From: Mycobacterium sp. MS1601
GTDB lineage: Bacteria; Actinomycetota; Actinomycetes; Mycobacteriales; Mycobacteriaceae
Direction of reading: 5' to 3'
Assembly: GCF_001984215.1 (NCBI RefSeq)
Contig: NZ_CP019420.1
Coordinates: 2,170,001 to 2,234,000, forward strand
DNA: 64,000 nucleotides
Part shown: positions 34,934 to 41,322 of the stretch, piece after piece
How positions within the stretch are numbered: position 1 is the stretch's first letter
How the letters are laid out: each line of letters starts with the position of its first letter
The notes under the pieces: generated by a model
Told to the model about the DNA's origin: nothing
What the model saw: the letters and a program-made list of their open reading frames with translations, nothing else
Databases searched by the model: none
Translations under genes and position numbers: made by a program

Positions 34934-36127
34934 TCAGGTGGCCCCGTCGATCTCGATCATCACCGGGCCGCCCCGGCGGTCAGCCCCGTCGAGCAAACTC
35001 GACGGGATGCGGAACACCCGCCCGGGTGCGGCCGGCCAGGGCAGTCGCCGGTGGCCGATGACCTTTCCAGCCTGCAGCGCAACCACTTTCGGGGTATGGA
35101 TGTACTCGTCGGTCCAGGCCAACAGTCGGTGTCGGGCCGGGGCCGGATCTCCCGGGCGCAGCAGTGACGGCGCGATCCAGCGCAGCGGCGCTGCCACCTG
35201 GACCGCGATGCCGTCCTGCGACGCCTGCCGTCCACCCAGATGGTTACGCACCTGCGCGGCGACGTGCCTGCCGTCCAGGGCAGCCACGTCGGCGGTGTCG
35301 ACGGGGTGGCACAGGTTGCCGATGGCGAACACCCCCGGACGACTGGTGCGCAGGGCGGTGTCCACCGTGGGCCCCAGGGTGCCGGCGTCCAGCGCCAACC
35401 CACCGGAGCGCACGAGTTCGTGGTCGGGGATCCAGTCGCCGGTGAGAACCACGGTGTCGCAGTCGACGATGCGCCTGGCTCCGGTGTCGAGGTTCTCGAT
35501 CTCGACAGCCTCGACGGTCGGCTTTCCGAGGATCCGCGTGACGCGGGTGCGGGTGGCGACGTGCGTGCGCTGGAGCGTCGAGCGCTGTTCGGTGGTCATC
35601 AGCACCGTCTTGCAACCGGCGTGACGCAGCGTGAGCACCGCCGAGTAGCTGACCAGTTCGGCCCCCACCACCACCGCACGCGTACCGACCTTGCCGTGTT
35701 TGAGGTGGACGACGTTCTGCAGGTGGCCCGTGGTGTAGATGCCTGCGGAACGGTCGCCGGGGATCAGTCGCGCGGACCGGGGCCGTTCACGCGCGCCGGT
35801 GGCCAACACCACCGCGTGCGCTGAAATCTGCTCGCGCCCTTGGGGTGACGTGATCTCCAGAGTCCGCTCGTCGGCCCACCCCGTGACCATGGTGTTGGTG
35901 CGGACAGCTGCCCTGGCCGCCTGGGCGACCAGCCGGCGGGCATACTCGGGGCCGCTGACGAACCGCTTCATGTCGCGGATGCCGTAGCCGGGGTGATCAC
36001 TGTGCCGCGGGATCCCGCCCGCCTCATTCTCTCGTTCCAGCACAACAACATTCAGGTCGGTAGCCAGTTCGGCGGCGGCAGTCAGGCCCGCCGGTCCCCC
36101 TCCGACGATCACGACGTCGTAGGTCAT
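34934..36127 (-). CDS. NAD(P)/FAD-dependent oxidoreductase (partner of the FAD dehydrogenase upstream)
   Basis: A 397-residue pyridine-nucleotide-disulfide-type flavoprotein. VVIVGGGPAGLTAA binds FAD, VVLATGARERPR follows, GTRAVVVGAELVSYSA is the second nucleotide-binding site and PGVFAIGNLCHP is the second FAD motif. No redox-active CxxC is seen, so it is not a thioredoxin-reductase-like enzyme. This type is the electron-transfer subunit in heteromeric dehydrogenases such as HcnB/OoxA. It is the last gene of a coupled operon: its ATG overlaps the upstream stop by 4 bp. Confidence 0.85.
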   Translation of the reverse strand: MTYDVVIVGGGPAGLTAAAELATDLNVVVLERENEAGGIPRHSDHPGYGIRDMKRFVSGPEYARRLVAQAARAAVRTNTMVTGWADERTLEITSPQGREQISAHAVVLATGARERPRSARLIPGDRSAGIYTTGHLQNVVHLKHGKVGTRAVVVGAELVSYSAVLTLRHAGCKTVLMTTEQRSTLQRTHVATRTRVTRILGKPTVEAVEIENLDTGARRIVDCDTVVLTGDWIPDHELVRSGGLALDAGTLGPTVDTALRTSRPGVFAIGNLCHPVDTADVAALDGRHVAAQVRNHLGGRQASQDGIAVQVAAPLRWIAPSLLRPGDPAPARHRLLAWTDEYIHTPKVVALQAGKVIGHRRLPWPAAPGRVFRIPSSLLDGADRRGGPVMIEIDGAT

Positions 36128-37509
36128 CGGTTGGCCTCGATCTCACAGTTGTCGTTCATCAGTGCCTGCACTTCGGCGCCGCAGAAGAAGGCCTGGCAGC
36201 GTCCGTTCATCACCCGGGTTCGTCGCCGCAGCCCGTCGAGCGCGGCCGGTGGAATCACCGAGTGGCAGGCATCGCGGATCTCACCCTCGGTGACGCGTTC
36301 ACAGAAGCAGACGATGCGACCGTACGCCGGGTCCTCCGCGATCATCTCAGGCCGCTGGTACGGACGCGGGAACGCCTCGCCGAGGTTGGGCATGACCGGT
36401 GGCGCGGGAAGATCGTCACTAGGTACCAATTCCATTCCAGCGGAGGAAAGTTGGTCATGCACATACTCGGCGACAGCCATTCCTGAGGTCAGACCGGTGG
36501 ACCGGATACCGCCCACCAGCAGGTAACGCTGCGCTGGATCAGCTTCGATCAGGTAGTCCGAATGGTCGATGGCCGCGCGCAGACCCGCGTAAGTGGCCGT
36601 CACCTCCTCGTCGAGCAGCCGCGGCATGAGGGTGCGCCCCTTCTCGAGGAGGAACTCGAAGCCGGCCTCGGAGGTGCCCGTGGCGGTGCGGTCCTGCAGG
36701 TCCTCGGATGTGGGTCCGAGCATGACGTTGCCGTAGATGGTAGGGCTGACCAACACCCCTTTGCCGCGCGACGTCGGCACCGGTAGCACGATCTTGTCGA
36801 CCAACGGGCGGGCCAGTTTGTCGTAGACGATGAGTTCACCGCGCCGCGGGGTGACCGTGAAGCGGCTGTATCCGAAGAGGGCGTCGATCTTGTCGGCACC
36901 CAGTCCGGCGGCATTGACCACCCAGCGAGCCTGCACCGGCCCCTTGACGGTGTGGACGGTGGTGAACTCCGCACTGCTGTCGATGGATTCGACACGACGG
37001 CCGGTCAGCAACGTGGCGCCGCGGTTGACCGCATCGGTGGCCAGTGCCAGGTTGACCGTCCAGGTGCAGATGATCGACTCATCAGGCACCGTCAGGCCAC
37101 CCAGTGCACCGGGGCCGAGGTGGGGAACCTGCTGGTACACCTCCTCGGAGCCCACCAGCACGCACTGGTGGTAGCCGTTCTCCTCGGCCTTGTGTAGCAG
37201 TGCGGGCAGCGCATCCAGCTGCTCCTGGTCCCAAGCCACCAGGATCGCGCCGGTGTGTTCCACCGGAATGCCGGTGTTTACCGCGTATTTCGACAGCAGC
37301 TGGTAACCGCGTCGCACCATCTCCGATTCGAGCGTTCCGGGTTTGGCGTCGAATCCGGTGTGCAGGATGGCGGTGTTGGCCTTGCTGGTGCCGTCGCCCA
37401 CGTCGTCGCGTGCCTCCAACAGGGCCACCGACACGTGGTGGCCGGAGAGCTCACGGGCAATTGCCGAGCCGACGATGCCGGCCCCGATGACGGCCACATC
37501 ATAAATCAC
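36124..37509 (-). CDS. FAD-dependent dehydrogenase, GlpA/DAO fold with C-terminal BFD-like [2Fe-2S] domain
   Basis: A 461-residue flavoprotein. Residues 1-370 are a DAO/GlpA-type dehydrogenase (VAVIGAGIVGSAIARELSG, LLEARDDVGDGTSKAN, HTGFDAKPGTLE, LLVGGIRSTGLTSG). After a linker comes a BFD-like iron-sulfur domain: VCFCERVTEGEI gives a CxC pair and NGRCQAFFCG gives the CxxxxC pair. Glycerol-3-phosphate dehydrogenases of the anaerobic/archaeal type and opine or hydroxyproline dehydrogenases share this plan. The GTG start (37507-37509) overlaps the kinase stop by 4 bp. If the kinase makes a phosphorylated polyol, this enzyme would oxidise it and pass electrons to the downstream flavoprotein. Confidence 0.87.
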   Translation of the reverse strand: MIYDVAVIGAGIVGSAIARELSGHHVSVALLEARDDVGDGTSKANTAILHTGFDAKPGTLESEMVRRGYQLLSKYAVNTGIPVEHTGAILVAWDQEQLDALPALLHKAEENGYHQCVLVGSEEVYQQVPHLGPGALGGLTVPDESIICTWTVNLALATDAVNRGATLLTGRRVESIDSSAEFTTVHTVKGPVQARWVVNAAGLGADKIDALFGYSRFTVTPRRGELIVYDKLARPLVDKIVLPVPTSRGKGVLVSPTIYGNVMLGPTSEDLQDRTATGTSEAGFEFLLEKGRTLMPRLLDEEVTATYAGLRAAIDHSDYLIEADPAQRYLLVGGIRSTGLTSGMAVAEYVHDQLSSAGMELVPSDDLPAPPVMPNLGEAFPRPYQRPEMIAEDPAYGRIVCFCERVTEGEIRDACHSVIPPAALDGLRRRTRVMNGRCQAFFCGAEVQALMNDNCEIEANR

Positions 37510-38921
37510 TGGAAAGTCCTATCAGCTAAAAGTCGCCACTGCGAACGGAATTCGGCGGCACGGTCGTTGCTCCACGCCGGCTCGTAGGTGGCCGCCGGCG
37601 ACCAGTCGGGAACCACCTCCCCCAGCGCTCGGGTGGGGTCGAGACTCAGTTTGGCCAATGCCGCCGCTCCGAGCGCAGTGGCGTGTGGTGAGGGATAGAC
37701 GTCCACCGGAACCTGGGTCAGGTCGGCGCAGGCCTGCATCAGGATCCTCGACCGGGTGAGACCGCCGTCGACCCGAAGCCGGGTCAGGGGCGCGGCGCTG
37801 TCGGAGTTGATGGCGGTGACCAGCTCGGCGATCTGCGCGGCGATGCCCTGCAGCACCGCGAGCACCAGATGTCCACGTCCTGTCGACAGGGTCATCCCGG
37901 CCAGCACGGCTCTGGCCTGCGACTTCCACCACGGTGCTGCCAGCCCGGCCAACGCGGGCACACACAGCACTCCCTCGGTGTCCGCGGCGGCCACCCGGTC
38001 CATCTCCTCGGCGCCGGAGATGACGCCCAGTGAGATCAGCCATTTCACTGCTGAGGCTGCGGTGTAGACCTGGCCGTCGACACAGAAGGTGTCCTGCCCC
38101 GCAACCCGCCAGGCCACCGAGGAGGTCAGCCCCGCGGTCGATCGCACCCCGCTGCCGCCGGTGTTGGCCAGCAGGAAGGCACCTGTTCCGAGGGTGCACT
38201 TCGCCGTGCCGGGGTCCAGACAGGATTCTGCGAGCAACGCGGCCTGCTGGTCGACCACCACTCCGCCGACGGGTACCTCCTCTCCGAAGAGCTTTGTGGT
38301 GCCGATGATTTCGTCGTTGGCGACGATGGCGGGCAGCCGTTCCTGGTCGAGTCCGAACAGTGCCAGCAGCTCAGTGCTCCAGCCCTGGTCACCCAGCTCG
38401 GCCACCAGCGACCGACTGGCGGTGGTGGCGTCGGTGACGAATGCTCCGGTGAGCTGGTGCAGTAGCCACGTATCCGTCGTGGTCACCACACCTGCGGTGG
38501 TGACGTTGCGCCGCAACCAGGCCATCTTGGGCGCGGAGAAATACGGATCGAGCACCAAGCCTGTCCGTGCTGCCAACTCGACAGCATGGTCTTCCACAGC
38601 GGCGCAGATGCTTTCGGCACGCCGGTCCTGCCAGACGATCGCCGAGCCCAGTGGTCGGCCGGTGTCGGGGTCCCACGCCAGCACAGTTTCACCCTGGTTG
38701 GCCAGCGACACCACGTCGATGCGTCGTCCCGCTTCGGCGACGGCGGCGCGGCCGGCGCCGAGCACGGACTCCAGGAGTTCACCGGGGTCCTGCTCGACGC
38801 CGCCGTCCGTGAGATACACCGGGTGCACCGGGATCTCGGCGAGCCCCACCACTGCACCGGAGTCGTCGACCACGATGGCCTTGGTCCCCGAGGTGCCCTG
38901 GTCGATGGCGAGAACTGTCAA
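37506..38921 (-). CDS. FGGY-family kinase, glycerol-kinase-like with altered glycerol pocket
   Basis: A 471-residue FGGY kinase closest to glycerol kinase. Phosphate loop LAIDQGTSGTK is intact, and DPYFSAPK (Tyr127), VWQDR (Trp97) and VDQQAAL (catalytic Asp224, Gln225) match glycerol-binding Tyr135, Trp103, Asp245 and Gln246 of E. coli GlpK. But the pair Arg83-Glu84 in NQRET is here NQGET: Arg is replaced by Gly77, Glu78 is kept. Arg83 binds glycerol hydroxyls, so a larger or different polyol is likely. It starts with TTG (38919-38921) overlapping the permease stop. ADP-binding and hinge regions (RVDGGLTRS) look normal. Confidence 0.85.
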   Translation of the reverse strand: MTVLAIDQGTSGTKAIVVDDSGAVVGLAEIPVHPVYLTDGGVEQDPGELLESVLGAGRAAVAEAGRRIDVVSLANQGETVLAWDPDTGRPLGSAIVWQDRRAESICAAVEDHAVELAARTGLVLDPYFSAPKMAWLRRNVTTAGVVTTTDTWLLHQLTGAFVTDATTASRSLVAELGDQGWSTELLALFGLDQERLPAIVANDEIIGTTKLFGEEVPVGGVVVDQQAALLAESCLDPGTAKCTLGTGAFLLANTGGSGVRSTAGLTSSVAWRVAGQDTFCVDGQVYTAASAVKWLISLGVISGAEEMDRVAAADTEGVLCVPALAGLAAPWWKSQARAVLAGMTLSTGRGHLVLAVLQGIAAQIAELVTAINSDSAAPLTRLRVDGGLTRSRILMQACADLTQVPVDVYPSPHATALGAAALAKLSLDPTRALGEVVPDWSPAATYEPAWSNDRAAEFRSQWRLLADRTFQ

Positions 38922-40399
38922 CGTGCGCCCTGGTTGTCGAGTTCGGCGTCGATGGAGTGCATATCGGGCATCTTGAGACCGTCCTTACCGCGGGTCACCA
39001 GAAGATAGCCCAGGTAGCAGGCGCCGATGGCCACCATCACCAATACGTAGAGCCACGGATCGCGGAACGAGGCGTCCCGGAACAGCGACAGCGCGAACAC
39101 CAACCAGATGACGGCGACGACCATGATCGGCACCTCCCAACGGCCCAGGCTGAAGCCCGCACTCGGCGGCAGCTTGCGACGGGTGGCGATGTAGAGAACG
39201 ACGGTGATGGCGTAGATGACCGCAGGCAGCAGTGTTGCCGCACCGAAGAGTTTGAACAGTGCGTCGGTGCTGGTGGAGAAGATCCCGAGGATCACAGCCG
39301 ATATGGCGGTGAGCGCGATCGTCGCGTTCAGCGGGGTCTTGGTCTTCGCGTTCACCTTGTTGAGCACCTGCCAGCCGGGGAAGCGCTGGTCACGGGACAT
39401 GGCCCAGACCAGGCGGACACCGGACAGCAGGATCACCAGACCGCAGGCGAAGATCGCGATGGCCACCAGCACCAGCAGGGCCGTGCCGACGAAGGAGCCG
39501 AGGATGTCGCGGATGACGTCGGCGATCGGGGTGCCCGATTCGGCCAGCGCCACCGGATCGTCGACCGCGGCCGTCACGACGAGCAGGAACAGGAAGCCCA
39601 GCACACCGGAGGCCAGCACCGCCTGCCACATGGCCCGCGGCACAACGATTTCCGGTCGCTTGGTCTCCTCGGCGAGGTTGGCTGCGGATTCGAAGCCGAC
39701 GATGGTGAACGCGCCCAGCAGGAAACCGAGCATCCACGGACCCGCCGCAGTGGCGGTGCCGAAGCTCCAATACCCTTCGGCGGGAACAGCTCCGGTGGAG
39801 AACAGGTTACCCACCGACAGCTTGTGCGCGGCCACTCCGACGATGAACAGCAGCACCACCAACGCCACCATGCCGACCAGTTCGGCCGTCACGGCGAAGT
39901 TGTTGACCCGTTCGGTCCATTTCATCGACAGCCCGACCAGCATCGCCTGCAACAGCAGCACGCCTGCGGTGATCAGGAAGGCGGTGGCGGGGGTGCCCTC
40001 GAAGTCGAACAGGGCGGGCACCACGGTAGAGGCGACGGTGTAGTCGACGGCGACCACGACGATGGCCAGGAAGGTGAACGAGATCCACCCGGTGATCCAG
40101 CCGAGGATCGGGTTGGCCAGTCGCGACACCCATTGGTAGGCGTAGCCGGTGACGGGGATGCGCGCGGCCAGCGAGCCCAGCAGCAGGGCGACGGCCAGCT
40201 GCCCGACGATGACGATGGGCCAGGTCCAGATGCCCATGGGGCCGGAACTGCCCAGCACGCTGCCGTAGGTGGTGAAGATGCCGGTGGCGATGGAGACGAA
40301 GGCGAACGCGACGGCGAAGGACGCGAAGCGTCCGGTGGAACGTTCGAGGCTCTCGGTGTAGCCGAACTGAGCTACCGAACTTCTGGAAGAATCTGTCAT
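38918..40399 (-). CDS. APC-family permease, amine/GABA/choline type
   Basis: A 493-residue transporter with 12 predicted membrane helices. GIFTTYGSVLGSSGP at helix 1 and FTIVGFESAANLAEETKRP at helix 6 and the following loop are typical of the amino acid/choline (ACT) subfamily, which includes GABA, choline and ethanolamine carriers. ATG 40397-40399 is chosen (MTDSSRSSVAQFGYTESLER); upstream codons are not protein-like. It is the first structural gene of the coupled operon, overlapping the kinase start by 4 bp. A nitrogen-containing substrate is the simplest reading, which is unexpected next to a glycerol-kinase-like enzyme. Confidence 0.86.
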   Translation of the reverse strand: MTDSSRSSVAQFGYTESLERSTGRFASFAVAFAFVSIATGIFTTYGSVLGSSGPMGIWTWPIVIVGQLAVALLLGSLAARIPVTGYAYQWVSRLANPILGWITGWISFTFLAIVVVAVDYTVASTVVPALFDFEGTPATAFLITAGVLLLQAMLVGLSMKWTERVNNFAVTAELVGMVALVVLLFIVGVAAHKLSVGNLFSTGAVPAEGYWSFGTATAAGPWMLGFLLGAFTIVGFESAANLAEETKRPEIVVPRAMWQAVLASGVLGFLFLLVVTAAVDDPVALAESGTPIADVIRDILGSFVGTALLVLVAIAIFACGLVILLSGVRLVWAMSRDQRFPGWQVLNKVNAKTKTPLNATIALTAISAVILGIFSTSTDALFKLFGAATLLPAVIYAITVVLYIATRRKLPPSAGFSLGRWEVPIMVVAVIWLVFALSLFRDASFRDPWLYVLVMVAIGACYLGYLLVTRGKDGLKMPDMHSIDAELDNQGAR

Positions 40400-40452
40400 T
40401 GGATCGGGCTTTCTGACTGAAGTTGACTGTTCGGAAGGATTTGTCTGGTCCC

Positions 40453-40478
40453 GCGGGCGGCGCTGCAACGCCGCCCGC
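40453..40478 (-). terminator. hairpin between regulator and structural genes
   Basis: GCGGGCGGCG (40453-40462) and CGCCGCCCGC (40469-40478) form a perfect 10-bp G+C stem with a 6-nt loop. It lies between the DeoR stop and the permease start. It may terminate the regulator transcript or act as an attenuator. Confidence 0.6.
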
Positions 40479-40485
40479 ACCCGTC

Positions 40486-41322
40486 TCACGGGCGTGCTGA
40501 CAGCACCGCACCTCCCGTCTCCTCGAATGCGGCGGCCACACCCGCGTCGGTGTTGGCGTCGGTGATCAGGCCGGTGACCGCGCTCAGCGGGCACACCCGA
40601 TACGGCGCAACCTGGCCGACCTTGGACGAGTCGGCCAGGATGTAGCTGCGCGCGCTGTTGGCGATGATGGTGCGGCGCACGTCGATCTCGTCGAGGTGAA
40701 AGTCGGTCAGACCTGCTTCGGCGTGCACTCCGCCGGATCCCAGCAGTGCGATGTCGGCGTAGATGTCGACGAAGAACGCTTTGGCGTGGGCACTCGAGCA
40801 GGCCAGGTCACCCGGGCGTACCCGGCCGCCGGCCAGCAGCACTTCGACGTTCGGGCGGTCGGCGAGCTCGACCGCGACGGGCAGTGACGGCGTGACGACC
40901 GTACCGACGAACCCGCGCGGGATGGCCTGGGCAACGGCCACCGCGGTGGTGCCGATGTCGATGACGACAGTCTGCCCGTCCTCGAGCAGGCCCGCTGCCA
41001 GTCGCGCGAGCTGGGCTTTGGCCTGGTGCCGGATCATCGAGCGCTCGGTGTACGACGGCTCGATGACGCGGCGGCTCTCCACTGGCGCAGCGCCGCCGTG
41101 CACCCGTCGCAGTGCGCCCTTCTCCTCGAGCAGCGCCAGGTCACGGCGCACGGTCTCGGCGGAGACTCCGAGGCGGCGGACCAGTTCATCGGTGCTGACG
41201 GCCTGCGCAGCAGCGACCGCTTCGACAATCGCTTCATGGCGTTCGACCGGGAGCACGTCAGATGACCGTTTGTGTGGAACTGTGACCGCGCATGACTGTA
41301 AGTGTGGGATGTGGTGGGTCAC
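40486..41322 (-). CDS. DeoR/GlpR-family transcriptional regulator
   Basis: A 278-residue regulator. The DeoR helix-turn-helix is at about 27-80 (RHEAIVEAVAAAQAVSTDELVRRLGVS, then SAETVRRDL and LRRVHGGA). The C-terminal sensor is a sugar-phosphate isomerase-like fold with VIDIGTTAVAVAQ, LLAGGRVRPGD and ADSSKVGQ. Members usually repress sugar or polyol genes and respond to a phosphorylated metabolite, here presumably the kinase product. The first 22 residues exceed the usual length; GTG at 41254-41256 (VLPVERHEAI) is an equally good start. It is upstream of and on the same strand as the permease operon. Confidence 0.85.
   Translation of the reverse strand: MTHHIPHLQSCAVTVPHKRSSDVLPVERHEAIVEAVAAAQAVSTDELVRRLGVSAETVRRDLALLEEKGALRRVHGGAAPVESRRVIEPSYTERSMIRHQAKAQLARLAAGLLEDGQTVVIDIGTTAVAVAQAIPRGFVGTVVTPSLPVAVELADRPNVEVLLAGGRVRPGDLACSSAHAKAFFVDIYADIALLGSGGVHAEAGLTDFHLDEIDVRRTIIANSARSYILADSSKVGQVAPYRVCPLSAVTGLITDANTDAGVAAAFEETGGAVLSARP

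Follow-up and report, generated by a model that had tools for sequence, protein, structure and literature searches.

What does an operon break down whose kinase looks like glycerol kinase but carries glycine in place of the arginine that marks the glycerol site? The question is raised by a gene set in a stretch of 64,000 nucleotides from Mycobacterium sp. MS1601 (NZ_CP019420.1, positions 2,170,001 to 2,234,000; hereafter the window), encoding a DeoR-type regulator, an amine-type permease, an FGGY kinase and two flavoproteins. Judged from sequence, it is on balance probable, with considerable room for doubt, that the operon serves a small cationic amino alcohol of the ethanolamine family, a class in which we include ethanolamine itself and N-substituted special cases. 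Serinol (2-amino-1,3-propanediol) in particular is a guess, possible yet doubtful, with 3-amino-1,2-propanediol as the alternative to it. The initial annotation had proposed import, phosphorylation and oxidation of an amino-polyol or branched polyol by a pathway that it could match to no described one. Domains and residues support these three steps, with a kinase unlike GlpK, as predicted functions, and no description of such a pathway appeared among the open-licence papers that the searches listed; as for the substrate, gene neighbours in related loci favor an amino alcohol, and the branched polyol less so. The operon consists of the following elements (flavin adenine dinucleotide, FAD):

34934-36127, minus strand: FAD partner, the second flavoprotein (Pyr_redox_2), 397 amino acids (Pfam PF07992, E 2.6e-25)
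36124-37509, minus strand: GlpA/GlpO-like flavoprotein of the DAO family with a C-terminal BFD [2Fe-2S] domain, 461 amino acids (DAO, E 2.6e-63; Fer2_BFD, E 2.8e-8)
37506-38921, minus strand: FGGY kinase of a GlpK sister subfamily, 471 amino acids, TTG start (FGGY_N/C; TIGR01311, 410.9 bits)
38918-40399, minus strand: permease of the APC superfamily, 493 amino acids, ATG start at 40399 (AA_permease_2, E 2.6e-45)
40453-40478, minus strand: GC-rich 10-bp stem with a TTGCAG loop, between the regulator and permease genes (conservation, folding)
40486-41256 (longest open reading frame to 41322), minus strand: DeoR/GlpR-type regulator (HTH_DeoR, E 1e-18; DeoRC, E 8.2e-44)

The coordinates bear out the earlier observation that the four structural genes are joined by 4-bp overlaps (TTGA, GTGA and ATGA). 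The listed open reading frame of the permease extends to 40594, its ATG being taken at 40399, while the DeoR gene more likely starts at GTG 41256 than at 41322, because the gene caller places the start there and homologues open with MLPVERH, MLPVARH or similar.

The kinase and its residues at the glycerol site

We found that the window kinase shares with GlpK (TIGR01311) the fold, the length and six of the seven glycerol-site residues checked, namely Glu84, Trp103, Tyr135, Asp245, Gln246 and Phe270 in E. coli numbering. Its AlphaFold2 model has a mean predicted local distance difference test score (pLDDT) of 90.6, and the 50 Foldseek matches listed are all glycerol kinases. It differs in having Gly for Arg83 and Asp at the position of Glu303, in being only 36% identical to the canonical GlpK of the host, which has all site residues, and in its score, which lies below the TIGR01311 cut-off of 590.35 bits and so places it outside GlpK, this being its best NCBIfam model all the same. 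The alignment to E. coli GlpK thus agrees with what had been annotated, i.e., a glycerol site with Trp, Tyr, Glu, Asp and Gln kept and Gly77 where GlpK has Arg83. The signature Arg83, Glu84, Tyr135, Asp245 and Phe270 is described as identical across all GlpK clusters (PMC3245297, excerpt; sources so marked are cited from part of their text). The window kinase keeps four of these five residues, Arg83 being the one replaced.

Glycine occupies the Arg83 position in 78 of 78 actinobacterial-type kinases (from 75 of the 80 loci described below, Salinisphaera among them, two Streptomyces plasmid loci and the window), in all eight proteobacterial ones and in three of three further kinases, i.e., in 89 family kinases, the window included. 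The other six site residues are invariant in all 86 aligned kinases, and the acid at the Glu303 position is Asp in 78/78 actinobacterial-type and Asp or Glu in 8/8 proteobacterial sequences. The motif NQGE is present in 120 of 120 homologues, the window among them (the best 120 of 7997 matches). The genome scan was partly seeded with the peptide LANQGETV and is therefore biased toward Gly kinases; the eight proteobacterial loci and the three more were found via the FAD partner and not via this peptide. In an unrooted tree of 29 kinases, the four GlpKs fall on one side of a branch, and in a rooted tree a single change accounts for the Gly kinases in 38% of bootstrap trees, with long outgroup branches, which leaves a single clade unsettled.

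In the glycerol kinase of Plasmodium, Arg83 forms a salt bridge with Glu306 (PMC2680290, excerpt), a residue that, by the E-G-S pattern, appears to correspond to E. coli Glu303. A site that has lost Arg83 and kept both acids would suit a cation. That the operon is another glycerol route, run by an atypical kinase, could be read from the rank of GlpK as best model, from the glycerol kinase label given in some sources, and from the glycerol 3-phosphate (G3P) site residues kept in the DAO protein. Yet, we regard it as very improbable: the arginine is identical in all GlpK clusters (PMC3245297, excerpt) and glycine is invariant here, the host has a canonical GlpK, and the set contains no glycerol facilitator.

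The two flavoproteins

The DAO protein and its partner had been described as resembling heteromeric dehydrogenases; the DAO, BFD and partner domains are borne out, while the pair is not GlpAB-like. The window DAO protein keeps all four residues aligned to His51, Lys258, Arg320 and Ser348 of MpGlpO, the last three of which we take to be the phosphate residues. GlpO His51 is the base that acts on the C2-hydroxyl, and the DAAO family also takes in amine oxidases, e.g., glycine and sarcosine oxidase (PMC10726252, excerpt). Against NF033460 (type 2 G3P oxidase) the protein scores 219.4 bits, short of the cut-off of 460. The operon logic is like that of GlpK with a G3P dehydrogenase, but membership in GlpK and in type 2 G3P oxidase fails the curated cut-offs and, for GlpK, also the Arg83 signature. 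The window motif reads GIRSTGL where MpGlpO has KSPGL, and 89 of the 94 sequences compared share RSTGL, the other five being two cut by contig ends, two from Firmicutes with ESPGL and one from Mesorhizobium with RSTGF.

The FAD partner (AlphaFold2 mean pLDDT 89.8) adopts a thioredoxin-reductase fold according to Foldseek, which also retrieved 1y56_A, the alpha subunit of an L-proline dehydrogenase (TMq 0.60). Thioredoxin reductase was ruled out, as the protein has no CxxC and scores 72.7 bits against a cut-off of 343.45. A GlpAB complex was ruled out as well, since the match to E. coli GlpB (E 0.001) spans only 62 amino acids and amounts to no useful similarity. The set resembles E. coli GlpABC in that GlpA, too, belongs to the DAO family and ends in a BFD-type domain; it differs in the second flavoprotein, and the Lys258 and Ser348 equivalents are kept in the window DAO protein but not in GlpA. 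As for a GlpC-like partner, the genes flanking the operon encode a ThrE-type exporter and an APH-type protein in a Pfam scan, no search aimed at GlpC having been made. The heteromeric L-proline dehydrogenase 1y56 offers the same two-flavoprotein plan, with 1y56_B related by sequence and 1y56_A by fold, yet the window set has G3P-type site residues and a coupled kinase and permease.

A DAO protein with a BFD domain followed by a Pyr_redox_2 partner is also seen in Firmicutes: behind the genes of the two ESPGL proteins stand those of a similar FAD partner and of DUF1667. The window DAO protein is 36% and its partner 34% identical (the latter over 279 amino acids) to the Ruminococcus counterparts. 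Thermotoga and Clostridium enzymes have been placed in a separate family, GlpTk (PMC11962113, excerpt), and the Firmicutes sets are presumably of this type. In contrast to them, the window has RST for ESP, no DUF1667 gene was seen beside its set, and kinase and permease genes are coupled to it. In seven loci, a shorter DAO protein (382-424 amino acids) stands beside the same kinase with no match to the FAD partner (L045, L046, L048, L049, L054, L055 and L063), and that of L045 also has no BFD domain. The partner thus seems to be an option for electron transfer rather than part of the chemistry.

Related loci and their gene contexts

Scanning one genome per species, we detected at least 553 stretches encoding a relative, of which the top 80 were retained as loci. 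By tblastn, the kinase and a GlpA-like match are present in 80/80 and a permease match in 65/80. Gene-order counts refer to the 75 loci in which the gene caller found the kinase (it missed the gene in five, tblastn finding all 80). GlpA directly follows the kinase in 68 of them and lies upstream of it in the remaining seven, and an exact 4-bp overlap joins permease to kinase at 42 of 51 junctions, kinase to GlpA at 53 of 68 and GlpA to the FAD partner at 54 of 62. A DeoR-type gene lies within five genes in 50/75 loci, a GntR-type one in 14/75. The set recurs across Actinobacteria and, with rearranged order, in Proteobacteria, so that the neighborhood search suggested earlier shows it to be widespread rather than unique, an uncharacterised Pseudomonas aeruginosa locus included. 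At E ≤ 1e-100, the kinase was detected in 30 of 118 sampled genomes of the host genus, the host among them, and in 7 of 296 genomes of the host phylum; such an occurrence marks the set as an accessory trait, in keeping with a catabolic operon. The closest named kinase relative among the matches listed is from Mycolicibacterium tokaiense (86% identical), and a scan of viral contigs yielded no confirmed relative. One contig labelled as an Acidobacteria metagenome-assembled genome (L010) encodes a set with 69-84% identity to that of the window, and its label is probably a binning error. In M. houstonense (L085 8001-9952), a shortened kinase match adjoins an extra partial FAD-partner match, and the locus looks disrupted.

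A plasmid search with the FAD partner returned 23 records, of which 17 were read (all but three from Streptomyces and those from Fusobacterium, Acetoanaerobium and Subdoligranulum); 14 of the 17 encode the DAO protein, the FAD partner and an FGGY kinase together. The other three are a Mesorhizobium record with an APH-type kinase and two Firmicutes records with no kinase alongside. The P. aeruginosa-type kinase was found at E ≤ 1e-100 in 12 records, all within the 23, and the first four proteobacterial kinases aligned are 36-38% identical to that of the window. On the Mesorhizobium plasmid (L101 4212-7433), an APH-fold kinase of choline/ethanolamine type precedes the DAO gene in place of the FGGY kinase. 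We dropped this locus as proof of an amine substrate, since its flavoprotein has no matches to His51 and Lys258 and was therefore treated as a different branch.

Some sets are mosaics. In the gammaproteobacterium Salinisphaera hydrothermalis (L076), kinase and permease are of actinobacterial type but the flavoproteins of Pseudomonas type, the DAO protein being 70% and the FAD partner 62% identical to those of P. aeruginosa. In turn, the window permease is 63% identical to that of Agrobacterium, although the kinases are 38% identical, and it shares 63-67% identity with the permeases of Agrobacterium, Roseateles and Salinisphaera (66% for the last) and 62.5% with that of Streptomyces. This interchange of parts argues for one shared substrate.

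The neighbors of the proteobacterial sets point to the ethanolamine family. In P. aeruginosa, the set is accompanied by EutH (705 bits, cut-off 575). The TRAP binding proteins of the alphaproteobacterial sets from Chelatococcus, Paracoccus, Neorhizobium and Tistrella are 73-84% identical mutually, and for the two of the four that were tested the closest solved chain is 4uab/4xf5 (443 and 453 bits, the next matches reaching 63 and 55), which we take to be complexes with ethanolamine and (S)-2-amino-1-propanol. In Chelatococcus, a DeoR gene divergent from the TRAP, DAO, FAD-partner and kinase genes is followed directly downstream by genes for EutB and EutC. In Paracoccus, genes for DeoR, TRAP, a glutamine-synthetase-like protein, an aldehyde dehydrogenase and an Fe-alcohol dehydrogenase stand in a row, a content like that of the glutamyl-ethanolamide route (PMC6529630, excerpt). 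The EutBC and glutamyl-ethanolamide (GlnA4) pathways thus resemble the family in the neighbor genes and transporter types of some relatives, and differ in that the window set has a kinase and flavoproteins instead of a lyase or ligase. In the Agrobacterium operon, the permease gene is followed by genes for class II fructose-1,6-bisphosphate (FBP) aldolase and FBPase, which fits dihydroxyacetone phosphate (DHAP) as product.

These neighbors speak for an ethanolamine-like amino alcohol rather than a branched polyol. The best fit is a compound sharing features of both glycerol and ethanolamine, namely serinol or 3-amino-1,2-propanediol. In the proposed route, the permease would import the amino alcohol and the GlpK-derived kinase would phosphorylate a primary hydroxyl of it. 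The loss of Arg83 removes a residue that would repel an ammonium group, and Glu78 and Asp282 of the window kinase, at the Glu84 and Glu303 positions, may hold that group. The flavoprotein, derived from a G3P oxidase, would bind the phosphate and oxidise the carbon beta to it, with electrons passing from the BFD cluster to the second flavoprotein and on to an acceptor. Serinol is the amine analogue of glycerol and serinol phosphate that of G3P; serinol would accordingly be converted to serinol phosphate and this to DHAP and ammonium. A serinol pathway shared by two phyla, in which a descendant of GlpK became a serinol kinase through loss of Arg83, and a descendant of G3P oxidase a deaminating serinol-phosphate dehydrogenase with a BFD cluster and an FAD partner, is likewise a tentative proposal.

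A neutral polyol, be it a tetritol or a branched one, would also find room in a larger pocket, and erythritol use, with EryA/EryB being an FGGY kinase and a GlpD-like dehydrogenase, answers to the same description of an FGGY kinase with a GlpD-family dehydrogenase. The window set differs from EryA/EryB by its amine-type transporter, BFD domain and FAD partner, and since an amine-type permease and ethanolamine-type contexts speak against a neutral substrate, we give it a small chance.

Two special cases within the amino-alcohol class were weighed. Ethanolamine itself might be phosphorylated, its phosphoethanolamine deaminated by the flavoprotein to glycolaldehyde phosphate, and this led to glycolate by a HAD phosphatase and an aldehyde dehydrogenase. 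The EutH, EutBC and TRAP contexts would suit this route, and so would a HAD-IB hydrolase gene near 11/75 loci, which in Amycolatopsis and Saccharopolyspora lies downstream of the FAD-partner gene with a 4-bp overlap (L078 12087-12740, L084 12093-12755) and could encode a pathway phosphatase. Four Rhodococcus loci moreover contain an aldehyde dehydrogenase cluster (the one scanned comes closest to the aminobutyraldehyde type, at 590 bits for a cut-off of 615), and Mycobacterium can turn ethanolamine over via glycolaldehyde and glyoxylate (PMC6529630, excerpt). However, the window operon has no phosphatase gene, the host genome giving only weak partial HAD matches, an enlarged glycerol pocket would stay partly empty, and the host already has EutBC, so that ethanolamine itself as the substrate appears unlikely. 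The other case is a two-part or N-substituted substrate, e.g., an N-alkyl ethanolamine, from which released ethanolamine would enter EutBC or the glutamyl pathway. Two unrelated ethanolamine-type modules adjoin the same TRAP and kinase module, and the change of Arg to Gly would make room, but the stretches read for Neorhizobium, Tistrella and Agrobacterium show no such module next to the set, and the only EutB match of the host is 2.1 Mb away; we consider this case quite unlikely.

In the 6.83 Mb host genome, that EutB match lies about 2.1 Mb from the operon together with an EutC-like gene, the operon having no EutBC and thus falling outside eut, and the canonical GlpK is encoded elsewhere, near a gene read by eye as a MIP channel. 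Accordingly, neither ethanolamine nor glycerol needs the operon.

Several observations weigh against an amino-alcohol substrate, or against serinol within that class. A second host gene for glycerol or ethanolamine does not exclude either substrate, and an EutBC or glutamyl-type cluster could be a sign of ethanolamine itself. The kept His51 suits the oxidation of an alcohol no less than that of an amine, and the HAD-IB gene is unexplained if DHAP is the product; serinol alone leaves the HAD hydrolase, DUF1937 and His51 unaccounted for. The Paracoccus enzymes all score under their curated cut-offs, and a RidA-family gene, no more than five genes away from the kinase in 3/75 loci, is a weak hint only. 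Of the four sets with the Agrobacterium layout, a single one shows the FBP aldolase and FBPase genes; they are absent from Roseateles and were not recognised in Ensifer or Sinorhizobium. The permease is no constant companion either: for 15/80 loci there is no match in the fetched stretch, some of these being on short contigs, the P. aeruginosa permease does not match that of the window in any meaningful way, and the Rhodococcus permease is only 29% identical to it.

Many genomes carry the kinase, several sources naming it glycerol kinase. Should the amino-alcohol assignment be true, annotation would be corrected in two phyla, the uncharacterised P. aeruginosa locus would gain a function and amino-glycerols a genetic route, and a core glycerol pathway would prove to have been retargeted by paired changes, Arg83 to Gly in the kinase and RST for the KSP/ESP of the compared G3P enzymes in the flavoprotein. 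The P. aeruginosa locus is presumably PA1485-PA1492, going by the PAO1 map and by the match of its DUF1937 protein to 1t1j. PA1487 has been counted among presumed glycerol kinases, with GlpK alone characterised (PMC8151288, excerpt). DUF1937, of the N-deoxyribosyltransferase-like superfamily, recurs with proteobacterial sets (L090 1625-1981; L093 8640-8999; L100 9143-9499; L110 10642-11001; L111 10643-10999); neither it nor the S58-type peptidase of the P. aeruginosa locus has had explanatory value so far.

Permease, regulator and intergenic hairpin

The AA_permease_2 match and the absence of a glycerol facilitator from the set agree with the view of the transporter as an amine-type APC permease; its best NCBIfam models, TIGR03428 and TIGR00907, are both far under their cut-offs. 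In two loci with no APC permease gene, a divergent gene, by eye encoding an NCS1-type permease, was observed (L037 4220-5650, L038 5480-6910). The operon is probably induced by its substrate, and the DeoR protein would sense the pathway phosphate. Upstream of deoR, the best inverted repeat is common to just 3/29 sequences; thus, we claim no operator.

Between the regulator and permease genes, positions 40440-40485 of the window give a folding z-score of -2.99, 2 of 200 shuffles doing as well. The hairpin has no T-run and no Rfam match up to E 0.1. In an alignment of 20 sequences (the window and 19 related loci), 99% of 200 cells pair and the TTGCAG loop is present in 19. Nine of the ten pairs never vary, and the tenth is changed on both sides in five sequences and broken in two, a covariation score matched by 3 of 500 shuffles. 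In L030, the arms are kept around a longer loop, which favors an RNA hairpin over an operator of fixed spacing.

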